34,837 nt of DNA from assembly GCA_001464235.1 (NCBI GenBank), contig LNFH01000097.1, positions 1 to 34,837 on the forward strand, in the 5' to 3' direction. How positions within the stretch are numbered: position 1 is the first letter of the stretch; the number at the start of each line of letters is the position of its first letter. Below the pieces are notes generated by a model. It was not told the origin of the DNA and searched no databases. It worked only from the letters and a program-made list of their open reading frames with translations. Of the stretch, positions 16,162 through 34,837 are shown in pieces. The stretch is from Rhizobiales bacterium Ga0077556 (lineage in GTDB: Bacteria; Pseudomonadota; Alphaproteobacteria; Rhizobiales; Phreatobacteraceae). Position numbers and translations under genes: made by a program.

Positions 16162-16186
16162 GGAACGGCGCCGGCGCGGCGGCGTT
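16162..16186 (+). promoter_or_regulatory. EcfG-type general-stress promoter of the DUF427 gene
   Basis: GGAAC (16162-16166), exactly 16 bases, then CGTT (16183-16186) match the alphaproteobacterial EcfG/RpoE2 consensus fully. The ATG at 16206 lies 20 bases further. The match is exact, but five plus four bases can occur by chance in GC-rich DNA; the position adds weight. Confidence 0.65.
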
Positions 16187-19720: not shown

Positions 19721-19745
19721 GGAACCACCCCGCCCCAGGCCCGTT
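19721..19745 (+). promoter_or_regulatory. EcfG-type general-stress promoter of the HWE kinase gene
   Basis: GGAAC (19721-19725), 16 bases, then CGTT (19742-19745), an exact consensus match, 30 bases before the kinase ATG. It lies in the only gap between the two kinase genes, so the HWE kinase can be expressed on its own under general stress. Confidence 0.65.
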
Positions 19746-19775: not shown

Positions 19776-21272
19776 ATGACTGATGATCGTCACTTTCTGG
19801 CCGGCGGGGGGCAGATGGGAGCGCTGATGCGGGCCCATGACTGGGCCGCGACCGCGTTCGGACAGCCGGCCGACTGGGCAGCCGAACTCAAGGTTCTGGC
19901 GGCTTTCGTCCTCGCCAGCCCGCAGCCGATGATGATCTGGTGGGGCCCCGATCTTCTGCAGATCTACAACGACGCCTTCGCCGGCCTGATGGGCCCCGAG
20001 CGCCATCCCGGCGCCTTCGGGGCCGCCGCGCAGCACAGCTGGAGCGAGATCTGGTCGACCCTCGGGCCGCAGGTCGCCCATGTCCTCGCCGGCGGCGAGC
20101 CGCGGCTGAACGAGGAGGAGCTGATCCAGATCACGCGGTTCGGCGCGCGGCGGAGCGTATGGTGGACCTACGGCTTCTCGCCGATCGTGGTCGCCGGAAC
20201 GGTGGCCGGCGTCGTCCTCACCTGCCAGGAGGTGACCGCCCGCCAGAGGCTGACCAACCGCATCCGCCACCAGTCGGAGCGCTTCCAGCAGCTCTTCGAA
20301 CAGGCGCCGGGCTTCATCGCCATCCTGCTCGGGCCGCAGCACGTCTTCCAGTTCGCCAACGCCGCCTACCGGACCCTCGTCGGCAACCGTCCGCTGATCG
20401 GCAAGCCGGTGGCCGACATCCTGCCCGAGGCCTCGGCCCAGGGCTTCGTGGCGCGCCTCGACGAGGTCTATGCCAGCGGCGAGCTGCACGCCGGACGCCG
20501 GGTGCCGCTGACGCTCACCGACGGCGACGGCACGGAGCGGGACTACGTCCTCGACGTCATCTACCAGCCGATCGTCGACGACGACGGTCAGGTCGCAGGC
20601 GTCTTCATCCAGGGACATGACGTCACGGCCCATGCGGCGGCCGAGAAGAACCTGACGCTGATCAACCACGAGCTCAAGCACCGGGTGAAGAACACGCTGG
20701 CGGTGACGACGGGCATCGTCAACCAGACGCTGCGCAACCGCGGCAACGACGAGCTCCTCACTACGCTGCGCGCCCGGATCAGCGCCTATGCCCGCGCCCA
20801 CGACATCCTCGCGCCCCAGACCTGGGCGACGGGAACGGTGCATGGCGCCGTCATGTCGGCCGTCCAGACGTTCCGCGCCCAGGGCGGCTCCTTCACCATC
20901 GAGGGGCCGGACCTCACCCTCGGATCGCGCCAGGTCCTCTCGCTCGCCCTCGCCGTTCACGAACTCGCCGTCAACGCCCGGCGCTACGGCGCGCTGTCGC
21001 GCCCCGGCGGCAGCGTCGACATCCGCTGGATGCTGCACGATCCCGAGGGAGAGCCGAAGTTCGATTTCTCGTGGAAGGAGAGCGGCGGCCCGCCTTGCAG
21101 CGAGCCGGAGCGCCACGGCTTCGGCCTGCATCTGGTCTCGCGGGTGCTGGCAGCCGATTTCGACGCCACGACGTCGATCGCCTTTCCCCCCTCCGGCCTC
21201 ATCTTCACGATGCTGGCGCTCGGCCCGTCCCTGCGCCCGCCCGATCCGGACGGTTTCTTCGCCAAGCTCTGA
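19776..21272 (+). CDS. HWE-family sensor histidine kinase with two PAS-type domains
   Basis: A 498-residue cytoplasmic kinase. Residues 25-160 form a PAS-like domain (MMIWWGPDLLQIYNDAFAGLMG) and residues 165-285 a second PAS (FEQAPGFIAILLGPQHVFQFANAAYR). The catalytic part has HWE hallmarks: phospho-acceptor H302 in NHELKHRVKNTLAV, the N-box HELAVNARRYGALS, and the Trp-x-Glu motif in FSWKESGGPP. HWE/HisKA2 kinases in alphaproteobacteria often feed the PhyR-NepR-EcfG general stress cascade. The EcfG-type promoter in front of this gene fits a feedback role, but no PhyR or NepR gene is in the window. It has no receiver domain and no TM helix. The Shine-Dalgarno before ATG 19776 is weak. Confidence 0.92.
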   Translation: MTDDRHFLAGGGQMGALMRAHDWAATAFGQPADWAAELKVLAAFVLASPQPMMIWWGPDLLQIYNDAFAGLMGPERHPGAFGAAAQHSWSEIWSTLGPQVAHVLAGGEPRLNEEELIQITRFGARRSVWWTYGFSPIVVAGTVAGVVLTCQEVTARQRLTNRIRHQSERFQQLFEQAPGFIAILLGPQHVFQFANAAYRTLVGNRPLIGKPVADILPEASAQGFVARLDEVYASGELHAGRRVPLTLTDGDGTERDYVLDVIYQPIVDDDGQVAGVFIQGHDVTAHAAAEKNLTLINHELKHRVKNTLAVTTGIVNQTLRNRGNDELLTTLRARISAYARAHDILAPQTWATGTVHGAVMSAVQTFRAQGGSFTIEGPDLTLGSRQVLSLALAVHELAVNARRYGALSRPGGSVDIRWMLHDPEGEPKFDFSWKESGGPPCSEPERHGFGLHLVSRVLAADFDATTSIAFPPSGLIFTMLALGPSLRPPDPDGFFAKL

Positions 21273-29164: not shown

Positions 29165-31690
29165 TCACAGGTCCGCCAGCGGTTGCGCCGCGGCACGAAA
29201 ACCCGCCCAGGGGTCGCGGGCGGGCAGGGCGTCCCCCACCTTGAGGGCGTTCGGCTCCATGCCGCCCTCCACGTCCTTCCAGGTGGCCGGCACGGCGAAG
29301 GGTGCGCCGGGACGGGCACGGGTGGAATAGGCGGCGACCGCCGTCGCCCCGCGTCCGTTGCGCAGGTAGTCGATGAAGATCTTGCCGCGCCGTGCCTTCT
29401 TGGCGAGCGTCGCGGTGTACCGCCCCGGCTCGGTCGCGGCCATGGCGCGGGCGAAGTCGTGGGCGAAGCCCTTGACGGCGGCCCAGTCGGCGCCGGGCGT
29501 CAGCGGCACCGTGACGTGGAAGCCCTTGCCGCCGGAGAGCTTGACGAAGCTGTCGAGGCCGATCCCCTTCAGCCGGTCGCGCACCGCGATCGCCCCCTCG
29601 CGCACCGCGTCCAGGCCGACACCGTCGCCGGGGTCGAGGTCGAAGATCACCTGATCGGGCCGCTCGAGGTCGTCGATGGTCGAGCCCCAGACGTGGATTT
29701 CCACCACGCCCATCTGGACGAGGGCGGCGATGCCGTCGAAATCCTCGACGTAGAGGAGGGCGTCGCTCTCGCCCTTCGGCTTCACGGTGCGGATCGCCTT
29801 GCCCATGCCGGGGGAGGCGTGTTTCTGGAAGAAGGAGTGGCGGGCGATGCCGTCCGGGGCGCGCACGAGGCTGAGCGGCCGGCGCACCACCAGCGGCTCC
29901 ATGCGCTTCCACACCGCGCCGTAGTGGGCGAGCAGACCCTCCTTGGTCAGGCCCGTGTCCGGCCAGAGCACCTTGTCGGCATTCGACAGCACCACCGAGG
30001 TCGCGGGCGCCGCGGCCGCGGGGGCCTTCTTTGCCCGCTTCGGCGCCTTCGTCGGCACCGGATCGGCGACGGGCCCGTCCTCGCGGACGATCTCGCCGGC
30101 GGGCTTGTCCTCGCGCAGCCCCTTGAAGGCCGCCTGCCGCAGCAGGCCGTCGGCCGTCCAGGTCCGGTACTCCACCTCGCAGGCGAGCGTCGGCTCCACC
30201 CAGACCACGTCCTTCTGGCGGCCCTCCTTGCCCGGGAAGGGCGAGCGCTCCGCACGGATCGGGTCGAGGCGGCGCTTCAGCGCGGTCGCCAGCGCGGTCG
30301 TATAGCCGGTTCCCACCCGTCCCGCGTGCTGCAGCGTGCCGTCCTCCTGATAGCCGACGACGAGCGAGCCGATGCGGCCGGCCTTTGCCTTGGACGGCAC
30401 GTAGCCGGCGATCACGAACTCCTGCGAGCGGGTGCACTTGGCCTTGATCCAGTCGCCGCGCCGACCGCTGTGGTAGGGCGCGTCGAGCCGCTTGGAGATG
30501 ACGCCCTCGAGCCCCATCCGGCAGGCATGGGCGAGCATGACCTCGCCGGGTTCCGCGAAATCCTCGCTGTAGCGGATGCGCGCGCCGTCGGCGTCCGCGA
30601 GCAGCGCCGCCAGCCGTTCCTTGCGCGCCACCAGCGGCTCGCCGGTGAGGTCCTCGCCGTCGAGATGCAGGAGGTCGAAGGCGTAGAAGATCATGCCCTC
30701 GCGCCGCCCCTCCGACAAAGCCGCCTGCAGCGCCGCGAAGGAGGAGACGCCGGCATCGTTCAGCACAACCACCTCGCCGTCGATGACGGCGCTCTCGCAG
30801 GGGAGGTCGGCGAAGGCGCCGGCAAGCGCGCTGCCGAACCGCTCCGTCCAGTCGAGGCCCGTGCGGGTGAGCAGTCGCGCCTCTCCGCCCGCGACCACCG
30901 CCTGGACGCGGTAGCCGTCGAACTTCACCTCGTGGACCCAGCCCTTTCCCTCGGCGGGACGCTCCTTGAGGCTGGCGAGGCAAGGCGGCACGAAGGCCGG
31001 CGCCTGAACCGCGCTCCGGCGCTTGCCGGCGGTCTTCGACGTCTTGGCGGCGGCCTTCGGCCGGGTCTTCTTCGCCTTCGGGGAGGGTTTTTTCGCCGGC
31101 TTGCCCTCCGCCACCTCCTCAACGGTCAGGCCCGAGACGAGCGAGGTCGGTTGCTCGGCGAGGATGTCGCGGTCGGAGGCCGCCGCGTCCTTCACCTTCA
31201 TCAGCAGCCAGTTGTCGCGGCTCTCGCCCTTCCGCGGCTTGAGCCTGACGAGGTGCCAGCCGCCCTTGAGGCGCTCGCCGTCCAGGGTGAAGGCGATGTG
31301 GCCCTTGGCCATGGCCTTGGCGGGATCGATCTCGGGGGTCCAGGTGCCCCGGTCCCAGACGATGACCGAACCCGCGCCATATTCCCCCGCCGGGATCGTT
31401 CCCTCGAAGCCGCCATAGCTCAGCGGATGGTCCTCGACGTGCACCGCGAGGCGCTTGTCGTCGGGGTCGAAGCTCGGCCCGCGCGTCACCGCCCAGCTCC
31501 ACAGGACGCCGTCATGCTCGAGGCGAAGATCGTAGTGGAGCCGCCGCGCGGCGTGCTTGTGGACGACGAAGCTCCCGCCGGCGGCCTTCGCCGCCGTCCC
31601 GGCGACACGGCCGTCGGGCTCCCGGGTCCTGGAGAAGTCGCGCTTCTGCCGATAGGCGCCGAGACGGTCGGCCGCTCGCGCCTTCGGCAT
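29165..31690 (-). CDS. ligD: NHEJ DNA ligase D (phosphoesterase-ligase-polymerase)
   Basis: An 841-residue multidomain end-joining enzyme with domain order PE-LIG-POL. The 3'-phosphoesterase is at residues 35-170 (HYDLRLEHDGVLWSWAV; HVEDHPLSYGGFEGTIPAGE). The ATP-dependent ligase is at about 230-520, with adenylated lysine K256 in HEVKFDGYR, VIDGEVVV, EGVISKR and WIKAKC. The polymerase/primase is at about 545-830 (SNADKVLWPDTGLTKEGLLAHY; catalytic DxD in IFDLDPGDG). Lys/Ala-rich linkers separate the domains (195-228 and about 515-540). It processes and seals double-strand breaks held by Ku. Its ATG overlaps the stop of the upstream small gene (TGATG), so it is translationally coupled to it. 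All catalytic motifs look intact. Confidence 0.96.
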   Translation of the reverse strand: MPKARAADRLGAYRQKRDFSRTREPDGRVAGTAAKAAGGSFVVHKHAARRLHYDLRLEHDGVLWSWAVTRGPSFDPDDKRLAVHVEDHPLSYGGFEGTIPAGEYGAGSVIVWDRGTWTPEIDPAKAMAKGHIAFTLDGERLKGGWHLVRLKPRKGESRDNWLLMKVKDAAASDRDILAEQPTSLVSGLTVEEVAEGKPAKKPSPKAKKTRPKAAAKTSKTAGKRRSAVQAPAFVPPCLASLKERPAEGKGWVHEVKFDGYRVQAVVAGGEARLLTRTGLDWTERFGSALAGAFADLPCESAVIDGEVVVLNDAGVSSFAALQAALSEGRREGMIFYAFDLLHLDGEDLTGEPLVARKERLAALLADADGARIRYSEDFAEPGEVMLAHACRMGLEGVISKRLDAPYHSGRRGDWIKAKCTRSQEFVIAGYVPSKAKAGRIGSLVVGYQEDGTLQHAGRVGTGYTTALATALKRRLDPIRAERSPFPGKEGRQKDVVWVEPTLACEVEYRTWTADGLLRQAAFKGLREDKPAGEIVREDGPVADPVPTKAPKRAKKAPAAAAPATSVVLSNADKVLWPDTGLTKEGLLAHYGAVWKRMEPLVVRRPLSLVRAPDGIARHSFFQKHASPGMGKAIRTVKPKGESDALLYVEDFDGIAALVQMGVVEIHVWGSTIDDLERPDQVIFDLDPGDGVGLDAVREGAIAVRDRLKGIGLDSFVKLSGGKGFHVTVPLTPGADWAAVKGFAHDFARAMAATEPGRYTATLAKKARRGKIFIDYLRNGRGATAVAAYSTRARPGAPFAVPATWKDVEGGMEPNALKVGDALPARDPWAGFRAAAQPLADL

Positions 31691-31914
31691 CAGGCGGCGG
31701 CCCGGGGATAGGGCGGCGCCGCCGCCGCGACGGCATCCGCCGCCATCAGGTCGAGCTGGGTGATGGCGGGAACGGGATCCTCCAGCATGGCCACCATGAC
31801 CTCGCGTCCGAGCCCGGATCGTACCGCCTCGGCGAAGGCCTGGCGCGTCTGCCGTTCGGCGCGCAACTGGGCGGCCAGAGCCAAGATCAGTCTGTCACGG
31901 CTGTCCATGATCAT
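31690..31914 (-). CDS. Small uncharacterised protein coupled to ligD
   Basis: A protein of about 74 residues that I do not recognise. It reads MIMDSRDRLILALAAQL at the start and looks helical, with an alternating basic and acidic first half (RDRLILALAAQLRAERQTRQ) and an Ala/Pro-rich tail. ATG 31914 is preferred (AAGGA seven bases upstream); ATG 31908 is possible. Earlier in-frame starts would overlap the -10 of the EcfG promoter. The stop overlaps the ligD start by one base (TGATG), so it is coupled to ligD. No membrane segment. A helper role in repair is possible but unproven. Confidence 0.6.
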   Translation of the reverse strand: MIMDSRDRLILALAAQLRAERQTRQAFAEAVRSGLGREVMVAMLEDPVPAITQLDLMAADAVAAAAPPYPRAAA

Positions 31915-31936: not shown

Positions 31937-31962
31937 AACGTCGGCCCGTCGCGGCGTGTTCC
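31937..31962 (-). promoter_or_regulatory. EcfG-type general-stress promoter of the small gene-ligD unit
   Basis: On the minus strand GGAAC (31958-31962), 17 bases, then CGTT (31937-31940), an exact consensus match. Transcription would begin about 15 bases before the small gene's ATG and continue into ligD. Confidence 0.7.
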
Positions 31963-31980
31963 CTGGATGGCCCCAGGTCC

Positions 31981-33004
31981 TCAGGCCGCCTCCGCCGTCA
32001 GCTCCCGTGCCGCGGGCACCGCGGGCTTCTGCTCCACCGTCTCGGTCAGGATCTTCAGCACCGCCCGCTCCGCCGGCGTCAGCTTCGCGTCGTACTCGGT
32101 CGCATGGGACATGCGGCGGGCATAGCGGGTGAGGAGGCCGCCCGTATGGGCGGAGAAGATGGCGGGGTGGATGTAGGACGAGCGGCACACGGCCGGCGTG
32201 TTGCCGAGGCGCTGCGACACCGCCCGCACCGCGCTCGCCAACTGCTTGCGCAACTGCCGCTCGTTCGGCGGGGGAGGGGCGAGCGACAGGGCGAGCCCGC
32301 AGAGCACCGTGCCCGCCCAGGTGCGGAAGTCCTTGGCGCTCACCGGGCCGCCGGCGGCGCGGCGCAGATAGTCGTTGACCTCGTCGGACGAGACGGCCCG
32401 CAATTCGCCGTCCTTGTCGCGGTACTGGAACAGGTGCTGCCCGGGAAGGTCCTGGCAGGTCCGCACGATGCGGCTGACGCGCTTGTCGAAGATGGCGAGG
32501 CGCCATTCCTTGCCGCTCTTGCCCTTGAAGGTGAAGCGGATGGTGGCGCCCGCCACCGCCACATGGCCGCTGCGCGCGCGCGTAGGTCTCGTTGCCGATG
32601 CGGATGAGCGTGCGGTCGAGGAGATAGACGACGGTCGCCAGCACCTTGTCGCGCTCGAGCCCCGGAAGGGCCATGTCGGCGGAGACCCGCCGCCGCAGCC
32701 GCGGCAGGATCTGCGCGAAGGCGATCATCTTCTCGAACTTCTCCGCCTCGCGCTCGGCGCGGAAGGCCGCGTGGTAGATGTACTGGCGGCGCCCCTTCTC
32801 GTCCCGTCCGATGGCCTGGACGTGGCCGGCGGGATCGGGGCAGATCCACACGTCTCGCCAGGCCGGCGGGATGACCAGGGCGCGAACGCGCTGGAGCGTC
32901 GCCGCGTCGAGGCGACCGCCCGTCTCGCTCCTGTAGGAAAAGCCCTTGCCGCAGCGCTGGCGGGTGATGCCGGGGGCGGTGAGGTCGGCGAAGACGAGAT
33001 CCAT
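31981..33004 (-). pseudogene. DNA topoisomerase IB, frame broken near 32578
   Basis: A poxvirus-type DNA topoisomerase IB of about 350 residues split over two frames. The N-terminal part runs from ATG 33004 (GTG 33016 possible) through YIYHAAFRAEREAEKFEKM and TLIRIGNETYAR. The rest begins SGHVAVAGATIRFTFKGKSGKEW in another frame and continues to the stop at 31981, including the nucleophile Tyr in SSYIHPAIFS (codon 32173-32175). The block between them, usually NGSYGLTTL-like, is absent and the frame is off by 3n+2 bases, probably 29, at a GCGCGCGCGC run near 32574-32583. The intact enzyme would nick and rejoin DNA to relax supercoils. As written the catalytic half is lost. It lies between ligD and ku. 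Confidence 0.85.
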
Positions 33005-33046
33005 GGCAGTGCTCACGCAGGCGCCGCTCGATGGGGCGCGAGGGGC

Positions 33047-33071
33047 AACGTGCCGGCTCCGGACAGGTTCC
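33047..33071 (-). promoter_or_regulatory. EcfG-type general-stress promoter of topoisomerase IB
   Basis: On the minus strand GGAAC (33067-33071), 16 bases, then CGTT (33047-33050), an exact consensus match, about 43 bases before ATG 33004. It sits in the 87-base gap after the ku gene. Confidence 0.7.
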
Positions 33072-33091
33072 TGCCGGGGCGGGGCTGCGCG

Positions 33092-34003
33092 TCAGGCCGC
33101 CTTCTTGCCGCGGGGCTTGGCGGAGCCGCTGCCGGCCGCCTTGGGCGACGTCTTCGCGGGGGTCTTGGCCGACGTTTTGGCCGAAGCCTTGGCCGGTGCC
33201 TTCGCTGCCTTGGCGGGGGCCGCCTTGCTCACGCCGGCGCTCGCCCGGAGGGCGTCCATCAGGTCCACGACCTTGGTCTGCTTCGGGTCCTTGCGCCGCG
33301 TCAGCGGCTTTCCGGCGAGCTTGGCCTTGACCATCTCGGCCACGGCCGCCTCGTAGCGGTCGTCGAAGGCGCTCGGGTCGAAGGTCCCGGCCTTGGTCTC
33401 GACGATGTGGCGGGCGAGGTCGAGCATGTCCTTCTTGATCTTGATGTCCGCGACGTCCTCGAAGGCCGAAGCGGCCGACCGCACCTCGTAGTCGTAGTTC
33501 AGCGTATGGGCGATCAGCCCCTCGCCGTGGGCCCGGATCATCAGCGTCCGCACCCGCTTGAACAGGACGGTGCGGGCGAGCGCCGCCACCTTCTCCTCGC
33601 GCATGGCGTCGCGGATGACGAGGAAGGCCTCCTGCGCCACCGCGCCGGCGGGCGCGAGGTAGTAGGGCTTGTCGAAGAACACCGTGTCGATGTCGTCGCA
33701 GGCGATGAAGGCCTCGACCTTCAGCCGCTTGTCGCTCTCCGGCACCGCCTTGGCGATGTCCTCGGGCTCCAGCAGCACCATGTGGCTGTCGTCCAGGGCA
33801 TAGCCCTTGATCTGCTGGTCGCGGTCGACGGGCTTGCCGGTGGCGGGGTCGACGAACTCGCGGCGCACCCGGTTGCCCGTCTTGGCATTGACGGTGTGGA
33901 AGGCGATGCGCTCCGCCGTCGAGGCGGCGGTGTAGAGCGCCACGGGGCAGGTGAGATCCCCGATCGCCAGCGATCCCTTCCAGTTGGCCCTCGGTGACGC
34001 CAT
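33092..34003 (-). CDS. ku: NHEJ end-binding protein Ku (copy 1)
   Basis: A 303-residue bacterial Ku homologue that forms a dimeric ring on DNA ends and recruits LigD. The core is typical: NWKGSLAIGDLTCPVALYTA, RIAFHTVNAKTGNRVRREFVDP, KGYALDD, IDTVFFDKPYYLAP, FLVIRDAMREEKVAALARTVLF, and AHTLNYDYEVRS. The last 45 or so residues are a Lys/Ala/Thr-rich low-complexity tail with AKxSAKT-type repeats, as in other bacterial Ku tails that bind DNA or LigD. ATG 34003 gives the standard Ku start. It is divergent from a second ku gene and has an EcfG-type promoter. Confidence 0.95.
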   Translation of the reverse strand: MASPRANWKGSLAIGDLTCPVALYTAASTAERIAFHTVNAKTGNRVRREFVDPATGKPVDRDQQIKGYALDDSHMVLLEPEDIAKAVPESDKRLKVEAFIACDDIDTVFFDKPYYLAPAGAVAQEAFLVIRDAMREEKVAALARTVLFKRVRTLMIRAHGEGLIAHTLNYDYEVRSAASAFEDVADIKIKKDMLDLARHIVETKAGTFDPSAFDDRYEAAVAEMVKAKLAGKPLTRRKDPKQTKVVDLMDALRASAGVSKAAPAKAAKAPAKASAKTSAKTPAKTSPKAAGSGSAKPRGKKAA

Positions 34004-34051
34004 GGCCTGTTCTTTCCCAGCGAGCCGCGCGAGCGACGGAACGGTGGAGGC

Positions 34052-34076
34052 AACGCCCCTACCGGCTTTTCGTTCC
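34052..34076 (-). promoter_or_regulatory. EcfG-type general-stress promoter of ku copy 1
   Basis: On the minus strand GGAAC (34072-34076), 16 bases, then CGTT (34052-34055), an exact consensus match 48 bases before ATG 34003. Confidence 0.7.
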
Positions 34077-34082
34077 GCCGAG

Positions 34083-34108
34083 GGAACTTCCCCGGGCCGG
34101 CCGGCATT
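34083..34108 (+). promoter_or_regulatory. Near-consensus EcfG-type promoter of ku copy 2
   Basis: GGAAC (34083-34087), 17 bases, then CATT (34105-34108), one mismatch from CGTT, 22 bases before ATG 34131. Together with the minus-strand site the 127-base gap would be a divergent stress promoter. Confidence 0.45.
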
Positions 34109-34130: not shown

Positions 34131-34837
34131 ATGGCCGGACACACGTACTGGAAGGGCTATCTGAAACTGTCCCTCGTCACCTGCCCGGTGGCGATGACGC
34201 CCGCGACGTCGGAATCGGAGAAGATCCGCTTCCACACCATCAATCGCGAGACCGGTAACCGCGTCGAGAGCCGCTATGTCGACGCCGAGACCGGCAAGGT
34301 CGTCGACGACGACGACCAGGCCCGCGGCTATGCCCAGGGCGAGAACGACTTCGTCATCCTCGACGACGACGACCTCGACGCCGTCGCCCTCGACACCACC
34401 CGCACCATCGACATCGACACCTTCGTGCCGCGTGGCTCCATTCCCTGGCTCTATCTCGACAAGGCGCACTACCTCGTGCCGAACGACGAGGTGGGGGAGG
34501 AAGCCTTCGCCGTCATCCGCGAGGCGATGAAGGCCTCGAAGGTCGTCGGCATCGCCCGCCTGGTGCTCTACCGCCGCGAGCGCGCCGTCATGCTGCAGCC
34601 GCGCGACAAGGGCATCGTCCTGTGGACGCTTCGCTACGGCGACGAGGTGCGCGACGAGGCCGCCTATTTCGGTGACATCTCCGACGACGGGGAGCCGCCC
34701 GCCAAGGCGACCCAACTCGCCCGCGACCTCATCGGCGAGCGGACCCGGCCCTGGAACCCGAAGATGGCCTCCGACCCGGTCCAGACCGAGCTCGCCCGCC
34801 TCATCCAGTCGAAGAAGAAGACCCGGGCGAAGGCGGC
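34131..34837 (+). CDS. ku: NHEJ end-binding protein Ku (copy 2), 3' end outside window
   Basis: A second Ku homologue, divergent from copy 1, open to the end of the window (235 codons seen). It starts YWKGYLKLSLVTCPVAMTPA after the first four residues, then KIRFHTINRETGNRVESRYVD, FVPRGSIPWLYLDKAHYLVP, EEAFAVIREAMKASKVVGIARLVLY and GIVLWTLRYGDEVRDE, all Ku-core motifs. GGGAG lies seven bases before ATG 34131. It differs widely from copy 1 in sequence, so the pair is an old duplication and may form separate rings or a heterodimer. The visible end (SKKKTRAKA) begins a basic tail. Confidence 0.95.
   Translation, partial: MAGHTYWKGYLKLSLVTCPVAMTPATSESEKIRFHTINRETGNRVESRYVDAETGKVVDDDDQARGYAQGENDFVILDDDDLDAVALDTTRTIDIDTFVPRGSIPWLYLDKAHYLVPNDEVGEEAFAVIREAMKASKVVGIARLVLYRRERAVMLQPRDKGIVLWTLRYGDEVRDEAAYFGDISDDGEPPAKATQLARDLIGERTRPWNPKMASDPVQTELARLIQSKKKTRAKA

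Follow-up and report, generated by a model that had tools for sequence, protein, structure and literature searches.

Putative EcfG-type stress promoters before the ku, ligD and type IB topoisomerase genes of a Phreatobacteraceae genome

Four promoter-like sites in a contig of Rhizobiales bacterium Ga0077556 (GCA_001464235.1, LNFH01000097.1; 34,837 nucleotides, hereafter the window) are best read as promoters recognised by EcfG, the sigma factor of the general stress response, and the block that they precede, encoding LigD, two Ku proteins and a type IB topoisomerase (TopIB), as a stress-induced end-joining cluster in which TopIB is most likely a co-regulated maintenance enzyme (probability of about 0.87). 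EcfG control of ku, ligD and topIB, as proposed in the initial annotation, appears very likely here and is well supported by the spacing statistics, by motif conservation beside diverged spacers, by the absence of such sites before the 49 topIB loci examined outside Alphaproteobacteria and by the occurrence of the same motif before nepR-ecfG. Control of end-joining genes by EcfG is an already known kind of regulation, with Ku and TopIB among its targets in Sphingomonas melonis (PMC6599016). The present comparison adds a predicted EcfG target, topIB, that is widespread in Alphaproteobacteria and tracks Ku across the phylum.

Gene content and promoter sites of the block

By sequence, the block encoded components of bacterial non-homologous end joining, with the Ku fold and a LigD carrying ligase, polymerase and phosphoesterase domains (Pfam and NCBIfam). 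The ligD gene (29165-31690, minus strand) encoded 841 amino acids, with the domains in the order phosphoesterase, ligase, polymerase. Immediately 5' of it, a small gene of 74 amino acids (31690-31914, minus strand) matched no family in Pfam or NCBIfam, and its relatives before ligD in three congeners (G002, G003 and G008) showed 77-89% identity. A Methylobacterium-labelled MAG (L294) encoded a further relative of the small gene (56%) close to ligD. Upstream of this unit were topIB (31981-33004, minus strand), with both of its Pfam domains but in two frames, and ku-1 (33092-34003, minus strand), followed by ku-2 on the plus strand (34131-34837, continuing past the end of the window). Both ku genes matched Pfam Ku and NCBIfam Ku_bact.

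The exact GGAAC-N16/17-CGTT motifs that had been noticed before the small gene-ligD unit, topIB and ku-1 were all recovered, 22-48 bp from the likely start codons, as was the GGAAC-N17-CATT variant before ku-2. The site of the small gene-ligD unit (31937-31962, minus strand; GGAAC-N17-CGTT) ended 22 bp from the ATG at 31914 and occupied the same place in G002, G003 and G008, while that of topIB (33047-33071, minus strand; GGAAC-N16-CGTT), 42 bp from the ATG at 33004, occupied the same place in G002. The ku-1 site (34052-34076, minus strand; GGAAC-N16-CGTT) and the ku-2 site (34083-34108, plus strand) were 48 bp and 22 bp from the ATG codons at 34003 and 34131, respectively, and stood back to back with their GGAAC boxes 6 bp apart. 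All distances run to chosen (predicted) ATG codons. Each of the four sites was oriented toward its own gene, as the initial annotation had stated.

The proposed gene identities held for LigD and for both Ku proteins, but topIB was not a single open frame, its Top1B_N_bact and Topoisom_I core domains falling in two different frames. Alignment with the nearest relative, G002, revealed that the window gene was without 29 bp near position 32,575, inside a CG-repeat stretch. The G002 ortholog had both domains in one frame, as expected of a bacterial type IB topoisomerase and as the window gene did not, and also matched Deinococcus 2F4Q. Since the source assembly consists of 483 contigs and is 89% complete, an assembly error in topIB is possible, and the 29-bp gap may be either such an error or a true lesion.

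Frequency of the motif relative to chance

Across the whole window, five matches were found with spacers of 15-19 nucleotides, compared to 0.79 in shuffled sequences, and none of the 100 shuffles reached five. Concerning the genome background, for which a scan had been suggested, pattern counts in the source genome gave 489 occurrences of GGAAC-N6..30-CGTT, including 95 at N16/17 and 394 at the 23 other spacings. These 23 wrong spacings averaged 17 each, so that about 34 would be expected at N16/17, and the 95 seen represented a 2.8-fold excess; a cruder control, the reversed pattern, occurred 17 times at N16/17. About one third of the exact N16/17 matches in the source genome is thus background, and the motif by itself is no proof of a promoter. 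At the wrong-spacing rate, 0.017 sites would be predicted in the 2,172 bp of the block in which three CGTT sites were seen (P ~8e-7).

The same preference emerged in alphaproteobacterial topIB loci totalling 1.46 Mb, where the CGTT form occurred 87 times at N16 and 62 times at N17, with 3-17 occurrences at every other spacing. The CATT variant was also in excess at these two spacings (26 and 25, compared to 2-10 at the others), which makes the variant before ku-2 credible.

A fifth exact site of the window (16162-16186, plus strand) lay inside overlapping open frames and is possibly background.

Conservation within the genus

A search for the same promoters in relatives had also been suggested, and the whole block was present in G002 with all four sites. 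All 36 motif bases were identical between G002 and the window, whereas the three spacers of equal length matched at only 26 of 50 positions; the ku-1 spacer measured 16 nucleotides in the window, one fewer than in G002 (17). In G003, G005, G008 and G011, each of the two ku genes was also preceded by a site, bringing the count in the six genus genomes examined to 12/12 ku genes. Likewise, all four ligD genes of the genus had a site, which in G003 and G008 preceded the unit formed by the small gene and ligD. The back-to-back arrangement of the ku promoters was shared by five of the six genomes: the GGAAC boxes abutted in G003 and G008, and were separated by 6-8 bp in G002, G011 and the window; the exception was G005, in which the ku genes are convergent. 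The topIB site was less constant in the genus than those of ku, being present in 2/5 genomes, or 3/5 if GGTT is counted.

Distribution of the sites across Alphaproteobacteria and other Pseudomonadota

When a site was defined as GGAAC-N16/17-C[G/A]TT in the 400 bp preceding the topIB match, 57 of 111 alphaproteobacterial topIB loci had a site (33/70 in the order, 24/41 in the rest of the class), compared to none of 49 loci from other Pseudomonadota. The combined yield of sixteen wrong spacings was nine hits in the alphaproteobacterial set (111 loci) and one in the other set (49 loci). The former set came from 109 genomes, two of which (G313 and G324) provided two loci each; the latter represented 49 of the 50 TopIB-positive genomes outside the class, G391 (below the cut-off) not being included and L146, a second copy of G114, being dropped. 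In the 49 non-alphaproteobacterial loci (353 kb), GGAAC-N16-CGTT occurred nine times, while the other spacings averaged about 1.8 occurrences each (range 0-7), and none of these nine was within 400 bp upstream of topIB.

Among ku genes, a site preceded 27 of 44 in order and genus loci (26 order-level ku loci and six genus loci, so fewer than the 55 Ku-positive genomes of the order), compared to 0/20 outside the class, these 20 being hand-picked among the matches listed. For ligD, a site was found before 4/10 genes, all four from this genus, and before 0/14 outside the class. Genes with less than 200 bp upstream and ligD matches beginning after residue 60 were dropped from these ku and ligD counts. 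Among named loci, where ku genes with less than 250 bp upstream were dropped, the proportions were 28/57 in Alphaproteobacteria, 0/4 in ambiguous and 0/4 in non-alphaproteobacterial loci. Overall, about half of the topIB loci in Alphaproteobacteria, together with 17 of the 44 ku genes, did not show the strict pattern.

Sigma factor and general stress response genes

GGAAC-N16-CGTT was present upstream of nepR (nepR-ecfG) in nine of 11 congeners. NepR itself was found in all 11 congeners searched and in 11 of the 12 family genomes, the source draft being the one genome without a match. No EcfG ortholog was found in the source draft, in which at least five weak EcfG-like matches were obtained (best identity 29%). 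For phyR, the draft was covered by a DNA search (12 kb) with the G002 phyR neighbourhood alone: a 95% match began at base 1 of contig C189, approximately 4 kb past the phyR position in G002, and the remainder of the 12 kb yielded only weak, mostly repeated matches. The nepR/ecfG locus of the source was apparently lost in an assembly gap.

Elsewhere in the window, a further GGAAC-N16-CGTT (19721-19745, plus strand) was located 30 bp before an open reading frame (19776-21272, plus strand) encoding PAS and HWE histidine kinase domains, a kinase family described as coordinating the general stress response (PMC12148442).

Co-occurrence and neighbourhood of TopIB and Ku

Among 397 Pseudomonadota genomes, 93 encoded TopIB together with Ku, 37 TopIB without Ku, nine Ku without TopIB and 258 neither, so that TopIB was present in 93/102 genomes with Ku compared to 37/295 without, in counts that may still include effects of shared ancestry and of genome size, a reported correlate of end joining (PMC7719229). 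Among TopIB-positive Alphaproteobacteria, genomes with Ku had a median size of 5.4 Mb, compared to 4.0 Mb for those lacking it. In the 150 genomes of the order, the corresponding numbers were 34, four, 21 and 91, and within the genus, Ku was found in 5/5 TopIB-positive genomes and 1/7 of the others (P = 0.015). A trehalose-synthesis gene, taken as a lifestyle control and carried by the 78 genomes above the cut-off of its family, was less closely tied to Ku (odds ratio of 15, compared to 72 for TopIB), and the TopIB-Ku link persisted in both strata, with and without this gene. When the data were collapsed to families (assumed total 80-105), 19 families had both proteins (although in f93 they occurred in separate genomes), three TopIB only and four Ku only.

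The topIB and ku genes were at most about 5 kb apart in 12 of 160 loci belonging to six families, a lower bound as the flanks were of about 10, 5 or 1.5 kb, and the coordinates in G310, where the two genes are neighbours, added a seventh family. Linkage was thus rare, and topIB was present within the fetched stretch of only one of 80 named ligD loci (Mesorhizobium carmichaelinearum). The frequency of the topIB site was the same with Ku (43/83) and without it (14/26). In family f56, 16 genomes encoded TopIB and only two of these Ku, yet a site was found before 12 of the 16 topIB genes.

In four genomes (G005, G031, G311 and G347; loci L078, L073, L195 and L218), a separate LigD-type polymerase domain was located 1.2-7.8 kb from topIB, and the fetched stretch was without a Ku match beside the two.

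Discussion

We infer that stress would lead PhyR to draw NepR off EcfG, as in the known pathway, and that RNA polymerase with EcfG would then transcribe the small gene-ligD unit, topIB and, from the back-to-back promoters, ku-1 and ku-2. Ku would bind broken DNA ends and LigD would process and seal them, while TopIB would relax torsion without ATP, an activity that would fit non-growing cells. TopIB would thus most likely be a co-regulated DNA-maintenance enzyme that may aid end joining without being limited to it.

The four sites might instead be chance matches in GC-rich DNA, as the background of about one third among exact motifs could suggest, but this is hardly credible given their clustering, their conservation in relatives despite diverged spacers and the contrast between topIB loci inside and outside the class; a chance origin was rejected on the basis of the wrong-spacing controls together with conservation. 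GGAAC boxes are common to several ECF groups, and an ECF sigma factor other than EcfG could use the sites, a reading with which the weak EcfG-like matches in a draft where the ortholog was not found would agree. It is nevertheless improbable, as the motif precedes nepR-ecfG in most congeners and is found upstream of none of the 49 non-alphaproteobacterial topIB loci examined, and as EcfG dependence of Ku and TopIB has been measured in S. melonis (PMC6599016).

The role of the topoisomerase leaves more room for discussion. TopIB could be a dedicated part of end joining that swivels or relaxes DNA while Ku and LigD hold it, allowing the ends to be aligned and sealed, which would explain why the genes are kept, placed and expressed together. 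The co-occurrence with Ku in the phylum and in the genus, the weaker tie of the trehalose control gene, the recurrent topIB-ku neighbourhoods and the Deinococcus complex in which TopIB, with PprA and an ATP-dependent ligase, relaxes DNA and joins ends (PMC3893189) point in this direction. Against it stand the equal frequency of the topIB site in genomes without Ku, the f56 counts, the rarity of linkage to ligD, the possible contribution of genome size and ancestry to the counts, and the broken frame of the window gene. This reading is doubtful, and TopIB as a strictly end-joining part was not accepted, the site being equally frequent without Ku. For the initial proposal of the topoisomerase as a working part of break repair, co-occurrence and repeated neighbourhoods are no more than suggestive, and the observations on Ku-free genomes, ligD loci and the window frame do not favour it. 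A broader version, in which type IB topoisomerases would be general end-joining accessories across Pseudomonadota, relaxing Ku-held ends and being stress-induced with Ku and LigD in Alphaproteobacteria, is likewise tentative and rather unlikely. The preferred reading remains that of EcfG promoters serving an end-joining cluster and a co-regulated TopIB.

To our knowledge, the in-cell role of bacterial TopIB is ill defined. A link between TopIB and end joining becomes directly testable through the common stress promoter, the phyletic agreement with Ku and the recurrence of topIB-ku neighbourhoods; the tracking of Ku by TopIB makes such a functional link worth testing and is no demonstration of it. 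Control of topIB by EcfG is predicted to be wide in Alphaproteobacteria, and in the literature covered it has been measured in one species, S. melonis.

Comparison with known systems

In Sinorhizobium meliloti, Dupuy et al. in 2019 reportedly assigned end joining by Ku3/Ku4 and LigD4 to the control of RpoE2, the general stress sigma factor. Stress-induced end joining under RpoE2 in this species is also described in a review (PMC12844678), and, as predicted for the window, a single ligD and a pair of ku genes answer to a general stress sigma factor; unlike the window, that description includes no topoisomerase. In the open-access papers covered, searched with exact spellings, none contained both 'topoisomerase IB' and 'ligD', and 'topoisomerase IB' occurred together with 'general stress response' only in PMC6599016. 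Papers listed by searches on some of the terms had no TopIB term among their word counts. The word 'topoisomerase' was absent from PMC7719229 and PMC8656161, and PMC10932983 and PMC8092242 yielded no statement that EcfG controls ku or topIB.

In Sphingopyxis granuli, ku-ligD belongs to the direct general stress regulon (PMC7083833). As predicted for the window, end-joining genes are under EcfG with a flexible -10 box, whereas a single ku is described, and a word search of the same article for 'topoisomerase' returned no occurrence. Deinococcus radiodurans offers another parallel, as its PprA-LigB-TopoIB complex performs both relaxation and end joining (PMC3893189). There, as in the window, TopIB is accompanied by an ATP-dependent ligase and a protein that binds DNA ends, although PprA takes the place of Ku and the ligase is a different one.

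A further close counterpart is S. melonis Fr1, for which a table of the top 50 EcfG-dependent genes includes TopIB as well as Ku (Table 1 of PMC6599016). Their genes are far apart by gene numbers (1102 and 1831), unlike those of the window, and the word 'ligase' did not occur in the searched text of that article. The Ku site lies 30 bp from the gene (log2 ratio of -3.2) and was confirmed with a lacZ fusion, while the TopIB site, GGAAC-N17-CATT, lies 24 bp from its gene (log2 ratio of -3.5; PMC6599016). As in the window, an EcfG-type site is thus located close upstream of both the Ku and the TopIB gene, and the TopIB site of S. melonis carries the same -10 variant as that of ku-2.
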